A stretch of 64,000 bases of DNA from Candidatus Sulfopaludibacter sp. SbA3 (GTDB taxonomy: Bacteria; Acidobacteriota; Vicinamibacteria; Vicinamibacterales; UBA2999). The notes under the pieces were generated by a model. That model was not told the DNA's origin, ran no database searches, and saw only the letters and a list, made by a program, of their open reading frames with translations. A program made the position numbers and the translations under genes. The stretch is from assembly GCA_945903265.1 (NCBI GenBank), contig CAMDNQ010000003.1, positions 62,001-126,000 on the forward strand, in the 5' to 3' direction. This document shows positions 18,438 to 28,592 of the stretch, one piece after another (positions within the stretch are counted from its first letter, which is position 1; every line of letters starts with the position of its first letter).

Positions 18438-18451
<14 letters not shown>
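17819..18451 (-). CDS. pdxH: pyridoxamine 5'-phosphate oxidase
   Basis: FMN-dependent enzyme that oxidises pyridoxamine/pyridoxine 5'-phosphate to pyridoxal 5'-phosphate. The 210-residue length is normal for PdxH. Recognisable blocks are DPTAMALATATRDGRPSVRTVLLK (FMN site), GFVFFTNYGSRKSREI, ERQVRVDGTVEKVS, SDAYFLTRP, and the C-terminal PTELEFWQGRPSRLHDR, ending in the family R-L-x-P. The start at ATG 18451 (MSFADIRREY) lies 14 nt inside the 3' end of clpA. The longer open frame upstream is clpA antiframe and was not used. It links cofactor supply to the PLP enzymes in the window, but that is only suggestive. Confidence 0.93.
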
Positions 18452-20674
<2,223 letters not shown>

Positions 20675-20675
<1 letters not shown>

Positions 20676-21004
20676 TACTGATTGACGCTTTCCGTTTCGG
20701 GTTCCATCGTGGCCAGCAGCGGAAACTCGTGCTCTTCCGCCAGCCGCTCCGTCGCCTTGACCTTGGTGTCCGCCACGTCGTGGGTGAAGACGCCGGCGAC
20801 CCCCATCCCTGACTGATGCACGCTCAGCATGATGGAGAACGCCTCGGCATGCGGCTTCTGAAAAATCGACTCGAGCACCCAGACGACGAAGTCCTGTGTG
20901 GTGAAGTCGTCATTGTGCAGAAGTACACGCCACATCCGCGGGCGCTCGAGCAGCGGCTCGACGCGCGCCTGGGTCAGCGTGAACTCTCGCGGGTCGGTAC
21001 TCAT
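20675..21004 (-). CDS. clpS: ClpS adaptor (N-end rule specificity factor)
   Basis: A 109-residue adaptor that recognises N-terminal Leu, Phe, Tyr or Trp and delivers such proteins to ClpA. Core blocks are present: WRVLLHNDDFTTQDFVVWVLESIF (the N-x-D pocket and helix 1) and AFSIMLSVHQSGMGVAGVFTHDVADTKV, then the C-terminal Glu-rich LAEEHEFPLLATMEPE. It overlaps clpA by TAATG. Its upstream region is the TTCGTG-type repeat at 21005-21055, whose minus-strand GAAGAGC/GAAGGA units may serve as the ribosome binding site. aat, which creates ClpS ligands, lies 51 nt upstream. Confidence 0.95.
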
Positions 21005-21055
21005 ATCCTTCGTGCTCTTCGTGCCTTTGTGGCTATCTGTCGCGTCCTTCGTGGC
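21005..21055. repeat. TTCGTG phrase repeat between aat and clpS
   Basis: Degenerate copies of CCTTCGTG/CTCTTCGTG/CTTTGTGG spaced 8-10 nt fill the entire aat-clpS spacer and run into the last codons and TAA of aat (21056-21058). The same phrase occurs at 26351-26394, where it folds into a terminator. Confidence 0.8.
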
Positions 21056-21766
21056 TTATTTTGGCATACGGTCGCCGCCGTCCTCGTCCAGTCTCCAGGG
21101 CGACGGCACCGCCGGTTGCGCCGCCAGACGGGCCACATGCCTGCCGAACTCGGCCCTGGAAATCTCCCGCGCCCCGAGCGACGCCAGGTGCGAGGTGGAC
21201 ATCTGGCAGTCGATCAGCTCGAATCCCCAGCGCTGCAGTTGCGCGACGAGCGTCGCCAGTGCCACTTTCGACGCATCGGGGCGCCTGCTGAACATCGATT
21301 CCCCGTAGAACATCCGCCCGAGCGCGACGCCATACAATCCGCCGACGAGCTGCTCTCCCTCCCACACTTCCACCGAATGCGCGTATCCCGCTTCCGCCAG
21401 GCCCGTGTACGCCGCCATCATCTCGCCGGTAATCCACGTGCCGGCGTCATCGTCTCGTGGCTCCGCGCAGCCGTTCATCACCTCGCCAAACGCCGTATCG
21501 AGCGTGACGCGGAACCGGCGCGAACCGAGCACGCGGCGGAGCGATCGCGAGAGATGCAACTCGCCCAGCCACAGCACCATGCGCGGATCCGGACTCCACC
21601 ACAGGAGCGGATCCTCCTCGCTGTACCAGGGAAAGATGCCCAGGCGATACGCGTCGAGCAGACGCGGGATCGACAGGTCCGCCCCGGCGGCCAGCAGTCC
21701 GTTGGGCTCACGGAGGGCTGTGTGAGGGAAAGGGAACGGATCGTCGACGCCCAGCCAGGGGATCAT
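21056..21766 (-). CDS. aat: leucyl/phenylalanyl-tRNA--protein transferase
   Basis: Transfers Leu or Phe from aminoacyl-tRNA to proteins with N-terminal Arg or Lys, producing ClpS degrons. The 236-residue chain matches Aat: PNGLLAAGADLSIPRLLDAYRLGIFPWYSEEDPLLWWSPDPR (~residues 24-65), then GTWITGEMMAAYTGLAEAGYAHSVEVWEGEQLVGGLYGVALGRMFYGESMFS, then the C-terminal QLQRWGFELIDCQMSTSHLASLGA. It heads the N-degron cassette aat-clpS-clpA. The start is only 14 nt from that of the divergent gluQ, so its promoter must lie inside gluQ. No clear Shine-Dalgarno is seen. Confidence 0.95.
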   Translation of the reverse strand: MIPWLGVDDPFPFPHTALREPNGLLAAGADLSIPRLLDAYRLGIFPWYSEEDPLLWWSPDPRMVLWLGELHLSRSLRRVLGSRRFRVTLDTAFGEVMNGCAEPRDDDAGTWITGEMMAAYTGLAEAGYAHSVEVWEGEQLVGGLYGVALGRMFYGESMFSRRPDASKVALATLVAQLQRWGFELIDCQMSTSHLASLGAREISRAEFGRHVARLAAQPAVPSPWRLDEDGGDRMPK

Positions 21767-23298: not shown

Positions 23299-26200
23299 AT
23301 GCATATTCGGATAGTCGCGTTGCTACTCGTCGTCATTGGCCTCGGACTCGCGCCCGCCGCAGAGGCGCAGTATTTCGGCCGCAACAAAGTTCAATACGAG
23401 AAGTTTGATTTCAAGGTGCTCCAGACCGATCACTTCGACATCTACTTCTACCCTGAAGAAGAAGCCGCCGTTCAACTCGCCGCGCGCATGGCGGAGCGCT
23501 GGTATACGCGCCTGTCCACGCTGCTGAAGCACGAGCTCAACGGACGGCAGCCCCTTATCCTCTATGCCTCGGCCCCCCACTTCCGCCAGACGAACGTCGT
23601 GGACGGGATCGGTGAAGGCACCGGCGGCGTCACCGAAGGTTTCAAGCGGCGGATCGTCATGCCATTCGCCGGCGGGCTGGCGGAAACGGACCATGTCCTC
23701 GGGCATGAACTCGTGCACGCGTTCCAGTACGACATGGCGACGGGGCGGGATCTCGAAGGTAACGTCATCGGACCGGCTGTGAACGCGCTGCCGCTCTGGT
23801 TCATCGAAGGGATGGCGGAGTACCTGTCGCTCGGCCCCGTCGATGCGAATACGGCCATGTGGGTACGTGAAGCGGCGTCCCGCGAGGCGATGCCGACCGT
23901 GGCCGATCTCAGTAACCCGAATTTCTTTCCCTACCGGTATGGCCACGCGTTCTGGGCGTACGTCGCCGGACGCTGGGGCGACGCGGCCGTCGGCGACATG
24001 CTGCGCGCAACCGGTCCGAAGGGCGAAATCGAGCAGGCGATGCAAACCGTGCTCGGTCTCGACGAAGAGACCTTCACGACGGAATGGCACGCCGCGACTC
24101 AGCGGGCGTACGCACCGTTCTTCGAAACGGGCAAGCGGGCCGCCGCCTTCGCAAAACCGCTCATCACGGAGGGCGGGACGGGCAGCGACCTGAACCTGGC
24201 GCCGGCCATCAGCCCCGACGGAAAGCGCCTGGTATTTCTGTCCGAGCGGTCAGAGTTCTCAATCGATCTGTATCTGGCGGACGCCCAGACCGGCCGCGTG
24301 ATCCGCAAGATCGTCGAAACCGCGAGCGATCCGCACTTCGACAGCATCCAGTTCCTCACCTCCGCCGGCGACTGGGCGCCCGACAACCGGCGCTTCGTCT
24401 TCGCCGGGCTGAGCAAGGGACAGCCGGTCCTGGCCATCGTCAACGTCGACAACGGCTCGCGCGAAGCGGAGCACGGATTCGCCGACCTCGACGAGATCTT
24501 CAATCCCGCCTGGTCGGCGGACGGCAATCACATCGCCTTCTCGGCGTTGAAGGGCGGGCTGCTGGATCTTTACGTGTTCGACCTCCGCGGTGGAGCACTC
24601 CGCCAGCTGACCAACGATCCGTACGCAGACCTCGATCCGGAGTGGGCACCCGACGGCCAGTCGCTCGTCTGGGTCACCGACCGCTTCTCGTCCGACGCGC
24701 AGGCTCTCTCGTTCGGCAACTACCGGATCGCGATGATGGACGTCCGCACGGGCACCGGACGCGCGCTCGCGGGGTTCAGCGACGGCCGGAACACCAATCC
24801 GGAATTCTCTGCCGACGGCCGCGCACTTTACTTCGTGGGAACGCCTGAGGGGATTCCGAATCTGTACCGCGTTTCGTTGCAGGCGGAAGGCGGCACGCTC
24901 GTCTCGGGGACCACGACGCGGCTCACGAATCTCATCTCCGGGGTGAGCGGCATCACGCCGTTGACACCCGCGCTGTCGGCCGCAGCCGCCGCGCCGGACA
25001 TCGTCTTCACGGTCTTCGAGGACGGTCACCACAACATCTATGCGACGACGGCCGCCGCGAGCCCGGAAGCGGGCGGGTCGCCAGACCGCAATGCCGCGGT
25101 GCTGCCCCCGGCCGATCGCCTTGCGGGCGATGTCGTCCAGCTGCTTGCCACGCCGACGACGGGTCTGCCGCCGGCGCAGGCGCAGTTCCCGCAGGATGAC
25201 TACAAGGCGAGCCTCTCCCTGGACGCCATCGGCCAGCCAACGGTGGGCGTCGGCGCGGACCGCTTCGGCGCGTATGCCGCAGGCGGATTGTCGTTTCTGT
25301 TCAGCGACATTCTCGGCAACCACACCCTCGGTGCCACGTTCCAGGCCACCAACCGGTTCTCCGAAATCGGCGGCGCGGTGATGTACCTGAATCGTGAGCA
25401 CCGCTGGAACTTCGGGCTCGTCGCCGAGCAGACGCCGTACGTGACCGGCGGCTTCGCGCGGGGCGTCACGATTGTCGACGGACGAGAGGCGTTCGTCGAA
25501 CAGACGCGGCGCCTTACCCAGATCAACTCGGCGGTGAGCGGAATCGCCCACTACCCGTTCAGCCGCGCGCAGAGGCTCGAGTTCACGGGGGGCGCGCGCC
25601 GGATCGGCTTCGACCACGACGTGGAGACGGATGTCTTTTCGCTCGTGACCGGGTCACGCCTTGATAATCGCGTCGAGGAACTGGACCGGCCGGATGCGGT
25701 CTACCTCGGCGAGGCGGGGACGGCACTTGCCTACGACACCTCGATCATGGGCGCAACGGCGCCGGTGATGGGACAGCGTTACCGGCTGGAACTCACGCAG
25801 ACGGCCGGCACGCTGACGTACGCCGGAGCGCTCGTGGACTACCGGCGCTACGTCATGCCGGTCCGGCCGTTCACGTTCGCATTCCGGGGCCTCCATTACG
25901 GGCGATACGGGAGCGGCGGCGAAGATTCGCGGCTGGCGCCGCTGTACGTCGGTTATCCGGGTCTCGTGCGCGGCTACGAAATCAACTCGTTCGACCCGAC
26001 CGAGTGCATCGTCGCCGCCGAAACGTGCGCGGCGTTCGATCAACTCGTCGGCTCGCGCATCGCCGTCCTTGGAGCCGAGGTGAGATTCCCGCTCTTCGGC
26101 CTCTTCAGCCGGGATTCACTGTACGGCCCGTTGCCGCTTGACATCGCGTTCTTCGGCGATGCGGGCACGGCCTGGACGACCGGTGATGACCGGGTCCTGG

Positions 26201-26352
26201 GCGACGCCCGGCGGGACTGGGTGCGCAGCTACGGCGTGGCGATGCGGTTCAACGCCTTTGGCTACGCGATTCTGGAACTGGACTACGTGCGGCCGCTCGA
26301 TCGCCCGGGCCGCGGGTGGTTGTGGCAGTTCAATCTGACGCCAGGGTTCTAG
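23299..26352 (+). CDS. exported gluzincin-type protease / beta-propeller / outer-membrane barrel protein
   Basis: A 1017-residue outer-membrane protein in three parts. Residues 1-23 are a signal peptide ending AEAQ. Residues ~30-275 form a peptidase MA-like domain, with the zinc motif HELVH at ~residue 138 and the downstream gluzincin Glu in LWFIEGMAEY. Residues ~285-610 carry TolB/WD40-like repeats (ISPDGKRLVFLSE, WSADGNHIAFSA, WAPDGQSLVWVTD, FSADGRALYFVG). Residues ~640-1017 form a bacterial-surface-antigen type barrel (GGLSFLFSDILGNHTLGA...), ending in an aromatic LTPGF typical of barrel assembly. Proteolysis at the cell surface is plausible. A terminator follows immediately. Confidence 0.85.
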   Translation: MHIRIVALLLVVIGLGLAPAAEAQYFGRNKVQYEKFDFKVLQTDHFDIYFYPEEEAAVQLAARMAERWYTRLSTLLKHELNGRQPLILYASAPHFRQTNVVDGIGEGTGGVTEGFKRRIVMPFAGGLAETDHVLGHELVHAFQYDMATGRDLEGNVIGPAVNALPLWFIEGMAEYLSLGPVDANTAMWVREAASREAMPTVADLSNPNFFPYRYGHAFWAYVAGRWGDAAVGDMLRATGPKGEIEQAMQTVLGLDEETFTTEWHAATQRAYAPFFETGKRAAAFAKPLITEGGTGSDLNLAPAISPDGKRLVFLSERSEFSIDLYLADAQTGRVIRKIVETASDPHFDSIQFLTSAGDWAPDNRRFVFAGLSKGQPVLAIVNVDNGSREAEHGFADLDEIFNPAWSADGNHIAFSALKGGLLDLYVFDLRGGALRQLTNDPYADLDPEWAPDGQSLVWVTDRFSSDAQALSFGNYRIAMMDVRTGTGRALAGFSDGRNTNPEFSADGRALYFVGTPEGIPNLYRVSLQAEGGTLVSGTTTRLTNLISGVSGITPLTPALSAAAAAPDIVFTVFEDGHHNIYATTAAASPEAGGSPDRNAAVLPPADRLAGDVVQLLATPTTGLPPAQAQFPQDDYKASLSLDAIGQPTVGVGADRFGAYAAGGLSFLFSDILGNHTLGATFQATNRFSEIGGAVMYLNREHRWNFGLVAEQTPYVTGGFARGVTIVDGREAFVEQTRRLTQINSAVSGIAHYPFSRAQRLEFTGGARRIGFDHDVETDVFSLVTGSRLDNRVEELDRPDAVYLGEAGTALAYDTSIMGATAPVMGQRYRLELTQTAGTLTYAGALVDYRRYVMPVRPFTFAFRGLHYGRYGSGGEDSRLAPLYVGYPGLVRGYEINSFDPTECIVAAETCAAFDQLVGSRIAVLGAEVRFPLFGLFSRDSLYGPLPLDIAFFGDAGTAWTTGDDRVLGDARRDWVRSYGVAMRFNAFGYAILELDYVRPLDRPGRGWLWQFNLTPGF

Positions 26353-26394: not shown

Positions 26395-26400
26395 GTTTTT
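26367..26400 (+). terminator. rho-independent terminator built from the TTCGTG repeat
   Basis: CACGAAGGTCAC, loop GAAA, GTGACCTTCGTG: a perfect 12-bp stem directly followed by GTTTTT. It lies 15 nt after the stop of the protease-barrel gene and abuts the stop of the convergent BON gene at 26399. Confidence 0.9.
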
Positions 26401-27427
26401 ACTTGCCTACGCGCAAACGATCCACCACCTGCACAACGCCCTTCGTCTGCTGCGCTTCGGCAATCACGCGCTGCCTGGCGGCGGCGGTCGGCACCACACC
26501 ATCCAGCAGGACGACACCATCTTTCGCCATGACCGTCACGCCAGGCGCGCCCTGCAGATGAGTGCGGACGGCCGTCTCGAGCGCGGCATCCGGCGATGAG
26601 GACGGCACCGACGGCGTCGCGGCCGGCGCTGCGGGTGCAGACGCTGCAGGAGCCGAGACCCCCGGAGCAGACGTCGACACTTGTGGTGCCGGATTCGTTG
26701 TCAGTGGCGGCTGCGCCTGACCTGAAATCGTCGTTTCGACCGTCAGCACATCATCCACGCGCTGCACACCGTGCGTCGTCCACGCGAGCAGCCGTGCCTG
26801 CGCGCGCTCGTTGTCATTGGCGACCGTTCCGCGCAGCGTCACGATCCCGCCTTGCGTGGCGACGTCGATATGGCGCGGCTTGAGCGAACTGTCGCGGAAA
26901 AATTTCGCCTGGATGCCCATCGTGACCGACGCGTCGTCGGTCGGATACATGGCGGCGGCGCCCGGGTCGATGCCGCCGGTTGCGCCGCTTGTCGCGCCGC
27001 TCGTCACTCCGCCGGTTCCGACGGCGCCCGCGGTAACGCCCGGTGCCGTCGGCTGCGGCATGGCGGCTGCGCGACGTGCATCGACACGAAGCTGGTCGTC
27101 GATGCGTTCGACGCCGTCGGTGTTACGGGCAATGCTGAGTGCTTCGTCGCGCTCCGCATTGCTGCCGAGCACGCCTTTCAACGTGACGACACCGTCGCGC
27201 GCGGACACACCAATATCGCGCGCTTTGACGTCGTCATCGGCGAAGTACTGCGACTGAATTTTTGTCGCGAGCCAGCTGTCGGCGATCTGCTCGCCCGCGC
27301 GGCCTGCCAGCTCGCGCATCTCGGCACTCGCGCGCCGCGCGTTCTCGTCCGTATCCGCGCGATTGCAGCCGATGGCCACCGCCGCGGACAGAAAGGACAT
27401 TCCAATGACCAGTTGAGATCTACGCAT
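26399..27427 (-). CDS. BON-domain lipoprotein
   Basis: A 342-residue envelope protein. The start at ATG 27427 is set by GGGAGG four nt upstream. The N-terminus MRRSQLVIGMSFLSAAVAIGC is a lipoprotein signal with Cys at ~residue 21. Three BON domains are visible: one around WLATKIQSQYF...VKARDIGVSARDGVVTLKGVL, one around MGIQAKFFRDSSLKPRHIDVATQGGIVTLRGTV, and a C-terminal one around VRTHLQGAPGVTVMAKDGVVLLDGVVP. They are joined by Gly/Ala/Pro-rich linkers. BON domains are linked to envelope stress and phospholipid binding (OsmY, Kbp). Divergent from the TPR-protease gene, with a ~65-bp shared promoter region. Confidence 0.88.
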   Translation of the reverse strand: MRRSQLVIGMSFLSAAVAIGCNRADTDENARRASAEMRELAGRAGEQIADSWLATKIQSQYFADDDVKARDIGVSARDGVVTLKGVLGSNAERDEALSIARNTDGVERIDDQLRVDARRAAAMPQPTAPGVTAGAVGTGGVTSGATSGATGGIDPGAAAMYPTDDASVTMGIQAKFFRDSSLKPRHIDVATQGGIVTLRGTVANDNERAQARLLAWTTHGVQRVDDVLTVETTISGQAQPPLTTNPAPQVSTSAPGVSAPAASAPAAPAATPSVPSSSPDAALETAVRTHLQGAPGVTVMAKDGVVLLDGVVPTAAARQRVIAEAQQTKGVVQVVDRLRVGK

Positions 27428-27491: not shown

Positions 27492-28592
27492 ATGAGCTGG
27501 AATCGCATTGCGGTGGCGCTGGTTATCGCGCTCCTCTGTGCCGGAACCGCCAGCGCGCAGGGGATTCCCGGATCCCCGGCCTATGTCGCGGGACGTCTGG
27601 GCTGGGATGCCATTCGCGAAGGACGCCACCAGGATGCCGCCGCCGCGTTTGCGAAAGCGGTCGACGCTGAACCGCGGGACCCCTCTCTTCATCTCGGCGC
27701 CGGGCTGGCGGCGTTCCTGCTCGGGCAACCCACCGCGGCCCGCCAATCGCTCGAACGGGCGCTGACGATGGCTCCTGCGCTCACACAGGCTTCGTTGCTG
27801 CTCGGCGACATTCTGTATCGGGGCAGCGATATCGCCGGCGCGCTGCAGGTGTACGAAGCCGCGCTTCCGTACGCGCCCGATGACAAGACGCTCGCCACCC
27901 GCGTTGAAAGACTGCGCCGCGAATCGGCCGTGCACGACGCGTTTTTCGCGTCACGCGGTGCGCATTTCACTGTGTTGTTCGAAGGACCGGCGGACGAAGG
28001 ACTGGCCGCGCGCGCGGTGGACATTCTCGAAGCCGCCTACTGGCGTGTGGCAACCGCCCTGGCGATCTACCCCGAAGATCAGATCACGGTGGTGCTCTAT
28101 ACGCAGGAGCAGTTCCGCGATATCACCCGTTCGCCACAGTGGGCCGCCGCCGCGTACGACGGGCGTATCCGCATTCCGGTCCGCGGCACCGCGGCCGATT
28201 CAGGGGAGCTCGAACGCGTGCTCGTCCACGAGTTCACCCATGCGCTGGTGCAAAGCGTCGCGCCGCGCGGCGTGCCGACGTGGCTCCACGAGGGGCTGGC
28301 GGTGGCCTTCGAGCCGGATGGCGAGGCGTGGGCCGCGGCGCAGCTGGCCGTGACACCCGACCGGCTCCCTCTGAGCCGGCTGACCGGCAGCTTCGCTCCG
28401 CTGTCTGCGACCGAGGCCCGGCTCGCGTACGCCCAGAGCGCGGGGCTGGTGCGCGCCATGCTGGACCGCGGCGGCCCGCTCGCGGTCGGCGCGCTGCTGC
28501 AGGACGTGGCGCGCGGCGACCCGCTCCAGGCGGCGTTCGAACGACAGTACCTGATGTCGTTCGATGCTTTCGTTGACGGACTCGCGCAATAA
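27492..28592 (+). CDS. secreted TPR and peptidase MA-like protein
   Basis: A 366-residue exported protein starting MSWNRIAVALVIALLCAGTASAQ (signal peptide, cut at ~23). Residues ~30-140 hold three TPR-like helix pairs (GWDAIREGRHQDAAAAFAKAVDAEP, LGAGLAAFLLGQPTAARQSLERAL). Residues ~155-366 form a gluzincin domain, with zinc motif HEFTH (~residue 247) and TWLHEGLAVAFEP for the third ligand. It shares the protease fold with the 23299 protein two genes away. TACGAT at 27478-27483 lies 8 nt before ATG with no Shine-Dalgarno, so the mRNA may be leaderless. The 3' end contains the promoter of the RRM gene. Confidence 0.8.
   Translation: MSWNRIAVALVIALLCAGTASAQGIPGSPAYVAGRLGWDAIREGRHQDAAAAFAKAVDAEPRDPSLHLGAGLAAFLLGQPTAARQSLERALTMAPALTQASLLLGDILYRGSDIAGALQVYEAALPYAPDDKTLATRVERLRRESAVHDAFFASRGAHFTVLFEGPADEGLAARAVDILEAAYWRVATALAIYPEDQITVVLYTQEQFRDITRSPQWAAAAYDGRIRIPVRGTAADSGELERVLVHEFTHALVQSVAPRGVPTWLHEGLAVAFEPDGEAWAAAQLAVTPDRLPLSRLTGSFAPLSATEARLAYAQSAGLVRAMLDRGGPLAVGALLQDVARGDPLQAAFERQYLMSFDAFVDGLAQ

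Follow-up and report, generated by a model that had tools for sequence, protein, structure and literature searches.

A predicted zinc peptidase, a TolB-like propeller and an Omp85-type barrel in one outer-membrane chain of Acidobacteriota

Introduction

What does a peptidase do on the same polypeptide as an outer-membrane barrel, and on which side of the membrane would it act? The question is raised by an open reading frame at positions 23299-26352 (+ strand) of the 64,000-nucleotide stretch of DNA analysed here (the window). It encodes a 1017-residue chain in which a signal peptide is followed by a gluzincin-type zinc peptidase domain, then a TolB-like propeller and finally, at the C-terminus, a barrel of 16 strands. 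The initial annotation of this locus suggested that the protease could be displayed by its own barrel. The genome to which the window belongs comprises 3.5 Mb over 45 contigs, and the close named relatives of the window are Acidobacteriota, one Vicinamibacterales bacterium included.

Propellers in front of Omp85 barrels have been described. Heinz and Lithgow defined a WD40-Omp85 subfamily in 2014, with a TolB-like propeller before the barrel (PMC4104836), and a 2024 paper on PlpD counts WD40-like Omp85 proteins among those that are not well characterised (PMC11116518).

Peptidase, propeller and barrel form one chain

We took 99 loci, with one relative found in each, and checked them for domains (60 regions from the phylum search, 32 further regions and 7 loci from the search for relatives). 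Before counting, L087 (in three pieces), L088 (a fragment) and L064 (a duplicate of L004) were left out. The remaining 96 full-length relatives comprise 39 of type A, which are like the window gene, and 57 of type B, a paralog. As the initial annotation had it, peptidase, propeller and barrel are joined in a single outer-membrane chain, which Pfam and fold matches confirm (Table 1). The same layout recurs in all 96 relatives with the zinc ligands unchanged, so it reflects more than chance. A hydrophobic N-terminal segment is present in 94 of the 96; the exceptions are L008, which is truncated, and L124, which falls just below the threshold used.

Table 1. Features of the 1017-residue protein and its two neighbours (positions in the window).
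Feature	Position	Strand	Residues	Remarks
Signal peptide	23299..23370	+	1-24 or so	AEA near end; cut site placed by eye
Gluzincin-type zinc peptidase domain	23410..24129	+	38-277	Pfam BSP over cut-off; domain model matches M30, M9 and M1 peptidases
HELVH zinc motif	23704..23718	+	136-140	H136, E137 and H140 in 96/96
Third zinc ligand (EGMAEY)	23806..23808	+	E170	E in 96/96, 23-33 residues after E137
Candidate transition-state tyrosine	23932..23934	+	Y212	Y in 96/96, 65-78 residues after E137; role putative
TolB-like beta-propeller	24145..25068	+	283-590	PD40; Z 23-25 to TolB structures
Linker	25069..25215	+	591-639	No POTRA up to E 1; from model
16-stranded Omp85-type barrel	25216..26349	+	640-1017	PGF end; Pfam Omp85; BamA match; C-terminal F/W in 96/96
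VRGY motif	25966..25977	+	890-893	Long loop between strands 11 and 12, equivalent to Omp85 loop 6
FGDAG (Omp85 FxDxG motif), strand 13	26152..26166	+	952-956	From model and alignment of relatives
Lipoprotein, three BON domains	26399-27427	-		Start re-read at residue 28 of ORF; not a conserved partner
TPR + Peptidase_MA_2 protein (HEFTH...EG)	27492-28592	+		Start re-read at residue 23; not a conserved partner

The zinc site is conserved

The peptidase domain scores 25.5 bits with Pfam BSP (cut-off 23.8), and weak matches to Peptidase_MA_2 (below its cut-off) and M9 fall within residues 128-270. Modelled alone (pLDDT 71.9, pTM 0.73), the domain matches the M30 peptidase lugdulysin (Z 14.0), M9 collagenases (up to Z 13.9) and M1 aminopeptidases (about 12), and the best 50 fold matches are all M30, M9, M1 or related zinc peptidases (Z 11.0-14.0). 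In helical domains, a common arrangement can by itself yield a Z this high; here the match is convincing because a uniform family of enzymes is returned and the zinc motif is present. Sequence similarity to these structures is low, with identities of only 9-18% in the fold alignments and no match when a profile of the domain was compared with PDB sequences. Nevertheless, the domain shares both its fold (Z 11-14) and an HExxH...E zinc site with the M30, M9 and M1 gluzincins (lugdulysin, collagenases, aminopeptidase N).

The HExxH motif and a downstream glutamate ligand were found in 96/96 relatives. H136, E137, H140, E170 and Y212 are all invariant in this set, including paralogs that are only about 25% identical, so the zinc ligands named at the outset proved to be conserved. 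The spacing between E137 and Y212 is 65-78 residues across relatives. By analogy with a lugdulysin mutant entry (E242Q Y315F, residues 73 apart), Y212 is a candidate for the catalytic tyrosine.

The barrel is of the Omp85 type

The full chain was modelled with AlphaFold2 from an alignment of 8 rows, giving a moderate model (mean pLDDT 69.1, pTM 0.64). The expectation that the C-terminal part is a barrel held when structure prediction was run on the whole protein: a manual count gives 16 strands between residues 640 and 1015, and residues 646-1013 match residues 425-806 of BamA (Z 20.2, rmsd 4.2, 300 aligned), which is the whole BamA barrel. Pfam Omp85 matches residues 837-1003 with 34.6 bits (cut-off 24).

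Omp85 barrels carry a (V/I)RG(F/Y) motif in loop 6 and an FxDxG motif on strand 13. Both are present at these places, VRGY in the long loop that joins strands 11 and 12, FxDxG on strand 13. Among type A proteins G892, Y893 and F952/D954/G956 are each kept in 39/39, and R891 in 33/39 with H in the other 6. The motifs are weaker in type B, with R891 in 57/57, G892 in 41/57, Y or F at position 893 in 35/57 and D954 in 48/57. E927 and R929 are invariant in all 96 barrels, and the last residue is always F or W. The six type A proteins with H for R in VRGY (L041, L070 and L082-L085) all belong to one family (f10). Profile, motifs and fold all assign the barrel to the Omp85 (BamA) type and hence to the Omp85/TpsB superfamily, which is defined by its barrel (PMC4104836). 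A Pfam search up to E 1 detected no POTRA domain in the chain, setting it apart from the POTRA-bearing Omp85 proteins (BamA, TamA, FhaC, PlpD).

In the propeller, PD40 repeats score 80.6 bits (Pfam), and residues 283-576 of the full-chain model match TolB-type propellers with Z 23-25 (against PDB chains). While this fold is common to both proteins, TolB has neither peptidase nor barrel. The window protein lacks a TolB_N domain (Pfam) and scores 119.6 bits with TIGR02800 (cut-off 343.15), so it is not TolB of the Tol-Pal system; a separate TolB is carried in the same genome.

Two branches inherited the three domains together

Types A and B share a mean identity of 22-29%, depending on the domain. 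The peptidase is the best conserved of the three (54.8% within A and 28.5% for A vs B), and the barrel shows 42.5% within A and 22.3% for A vs B. Types A and B separate in the same way, with support 1.0, in the tree of each domain (peptidase, propeller and barrel); therefore the fusion predates the split, and the domains have been inherited as a unit.

Profile matches were found in 60/60 genomes of the window's order at E up to 0.001, in at least one of them through the propeller only. Judged by eye from the bit scores, 18/60 of these genomes have type A intact (3 more have pieces only), and 58/60 reach 225 bits or more with a type B match. Across the phylum, 98/199 genomes match at E up to 1e-30, and, by the same reading, 21/199 have type A over 1000 bits. 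The window's own genome carries a second copy with the same layout (L060:8604-11747 on contig C12; G000:C12:104693-107407). This copy is of type B, which is near-universal in the order, and is about 25-28% identical to the window gene.

Outside Acidobacteriota, where sampling was sparse, a Balneolaceae locus (L009) encodes the full layout at full length with 37% identity. A homolog on Salinibacter ruber plasmid pSR116 (L150:4926-6827, 40% identity) has 633 residues, with signal peptide, peptidase and propeller, and ends before the barrel; it is annotated as a basic secretory protein-like protein. We considered a split gene with the barrel next door and rejected it, the next gene encoding a serine carboxypeptidase-like protein. 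The barrel-less gene indicates that peptidase and propeller form a unit for which the barrel is dispensable, and suggests that this unit does the work while the barrel serves as a tether.

Gene neighbours differ between branches

A BON lipoprotein and then a TPR gluzincin had been noted beside the window gene, and both are as described (Table 1). The window resembles the BepA/DolP/BAM set of E. coli in that genes for a BamA-like barrel, a BON lipoprotein and a zinc peptidase with TPRs occur together. However, BepA is an M48 peptidase, and this three-gene grouping was not found elsewhere: neither a BON nor a TPR-peptidase gene was found in the available flanks of any of the 38 other type A loci (0/38), and a conserved BepA/DolP/BAM-like module of three linked genes was rejected. 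These neighbour counts are lower bounds, since flank genes were called by a crude codon-composition script, and flanks are short in L027, L063, L066, L088 and L089. In L027, from the same family, gluQ lies upstream and the RRM gene follows directly, its match starting about 590 bases downstream; this locus therefore lacks both neighbours. A weak TPR-peptidase match in a type B locus (L076) sits inside the type B gene itself. No gene family was common to the type A flanks as a whole, neighbours being shared only between close relatives. Elsewhere in the window, clpA, clpS and aat (leucyl/phenylalanyl-tRNA-protein transferase) stand in a row at 18438-21766 (- strand), an N-degron pathway cluster.

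Type B genes outside Vicinamibacterales are accompanied in 39/48 loci by a gene for an exported protein of about 230 residues with weak FlgT_M similarity, which immediately precedes type B in the same orientation (gaps -110 to 148). In 26/48 it is preceded by a gene for a small TPR protein that is lipoprotein-like where inspected. The resulting same-strand cluster (TPR, FlgT_M-like, type B) is seen across Acidobacteriota in L102-L149 (e.g. L120:449-4619), and FtsE/FtsX-like genes, recognised by eye, lie near it in several loci. This cluster was found in none of the 9 Vicinamibacterales type B loci; a TPR protein family adjoins the gene in 9/9. The one member of that family scanned (L060:12562-14205) has aspartyl-protease-like domains.

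Discussion

N-terminal domains of Omp85 barrel proteins lie in the periplasm. In our model, the longest barrel loops (49, 19, 13 and 8 residues) face away from the N-terminus, and most turns on the side of the N-terminus are short (2-6 residues, one of 15). By homology and by this model, peptidase and propeller would thus lie on the periplasmic side of the outer membrane. PlpD provides a precedent, as a protein once thought to display its enzyme that keeps the enzyme domain in the periplasm (PMC11116518). Taken together, Omp85 homology, model loop lengths and the PlpD precedent make surface display unlikely, and we set aside this part of the initial annotation. The layout does resemble the original picture of PlpD, and a free-living bacterium could conceivably use a surface protease. 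However, a type Vd-like route, in which peptidase and propeller reach the cell surface through the barrel of their own chain, would require some 590 residues to be threaded through a barrel that retains loop 6, would place outside an N-terminus that the model loop lengths put inside, and would follow a prototype whose mechanism has been overturned (PMC11116518). We regard such export as quite improbable.

The explanation that we favour, with somewhat better than even confidence, is an outer-membrane-anchored periplasmic zinc metallopeptidase. The chain would be exported by Sec, and its barrel, of the Omp85 type but without POTRA, would insert in the outer membrane and serve mainly as a tether. 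The peptidase and TolB-like propeller would stay in the periplasm, where the propeller may dock or gate substrates, much like the propeller of S9 peptidases, and the gluzincin site would cut periplasmic polypeptides or nascent or bound outer-membrane polypeptides. In S9 peptidases (acylaminoacyl peptidase, Dpp5) a propeller is likewise coupled to a peptidase, although there the peptidase is an alpha/beta hydrolase of the serine type, not a zinc enzyme. We count for this explanation the Omp85 barrel, the zinc set and Y212 kept in 96/96, the peptidase as best conserved domain, the A/B split shared by the three domain trees, the Salinibacter form and PlpD. The predicted peptidase probably serves to process envelope proteins or to control their quality.

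The VRGY loop and barrel motifs are, however, kept in type A (Y893 in 39/39) beyond the need of a mere tether, and an active role in assembly or translocation fits them equally well. The protein could be an assembly factor with built-in quality control, with the barrel as insertase, the propeller comparable to BamB, and the peptidase, like BepA next to BAM in E. coli, removing clients that misfold. Consistent with this, the Omp85 loop-6 and strand motifs are kept, branch B clusters with the small TPR lipoprotein (26/48) and the FlgT_M-like exported protein (39/48), and Heinz and Lithgow likened WD40-Omp85 to a BamA-BamB fusion (PMC4104836). Yet type A has no conserved partner genes, and no POTRA was found, whereas known assembly factors bind their accessory proteins through POTRA domains. 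Three POTRA-Omp85 proteins and a genuine TolB are already encoded in the genome; on that ground, we also rejected replacement of BamA or TolB by this protein. An assembly role therefore appears improbable to us, and we are equally doubtful of its extension to a phylum-wide class of one-chain machines of the envelope. These would fuse an Omp85 barrel with a propeller standing in for BamB and a zinc peptidase standing in for BepA, so that a single polypeptide folds, docks and destroys outer-membrane clients, and branch B would work from an operon shared with the TPR lipoprotein and the FlgT_M-like protein. Also conceivable is a structural or signalling scaffold in the envelope whose zinc domain binds but does not catalyse, given that peptidase activity is a prediction and that the propeller of TolB is a binding platform. 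With the catalytic E137 unchanged in 96/96, along with both histidines, E170 and Y212, we consider such a scaffold very improbable indeed.

We found no description of a peptidase-propeller-Omp85 protein in the open-licence literature searched. We take PF00149 to be the metallophosphoesterase family, in which case an Omp85 subfamily based on it would not be of the present type. The separate 'metalloprotease' subfamily of 2014 rests on PF00149 (PMC4104836). Going by its description, WD40-Omp85 shares with the window protein the propeller before the barrel and the lack of POTRA; the 2014 text on that subfamily makes no mention of a peptidase (PMC4104836). Added here to that description are the conserved peptidase, the two ancient branches A and B, the barrel-less Salinibacter homolog and the conserved gene cluster around B. 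PlpD and the patatin-like Omp85 proteins (formerly type Vd) also join an N-terminal hydrolase to an Omp85 barrel, likely on the same membrane side, but PlpD is a phospholipase with one POTRA and no propeller, and a homodimer (PMC11116518).

An invariant zinc peptidase on a WD40-like Omp85 protein offers an enzymatic handle, pointing to a catalytic mutant, a search for substrates and a predicted side of the membrane. If our explanation is true, Omp85 barrels would tether periplasmic enzymes more widely than in PlpD alone, and N-terminal fusions to such barrels should be read as inside rather than displayed. That branch B is found almost throughout one order of Acidobacteriota hints at a central function for it in the envelope in this poorly known phylum.
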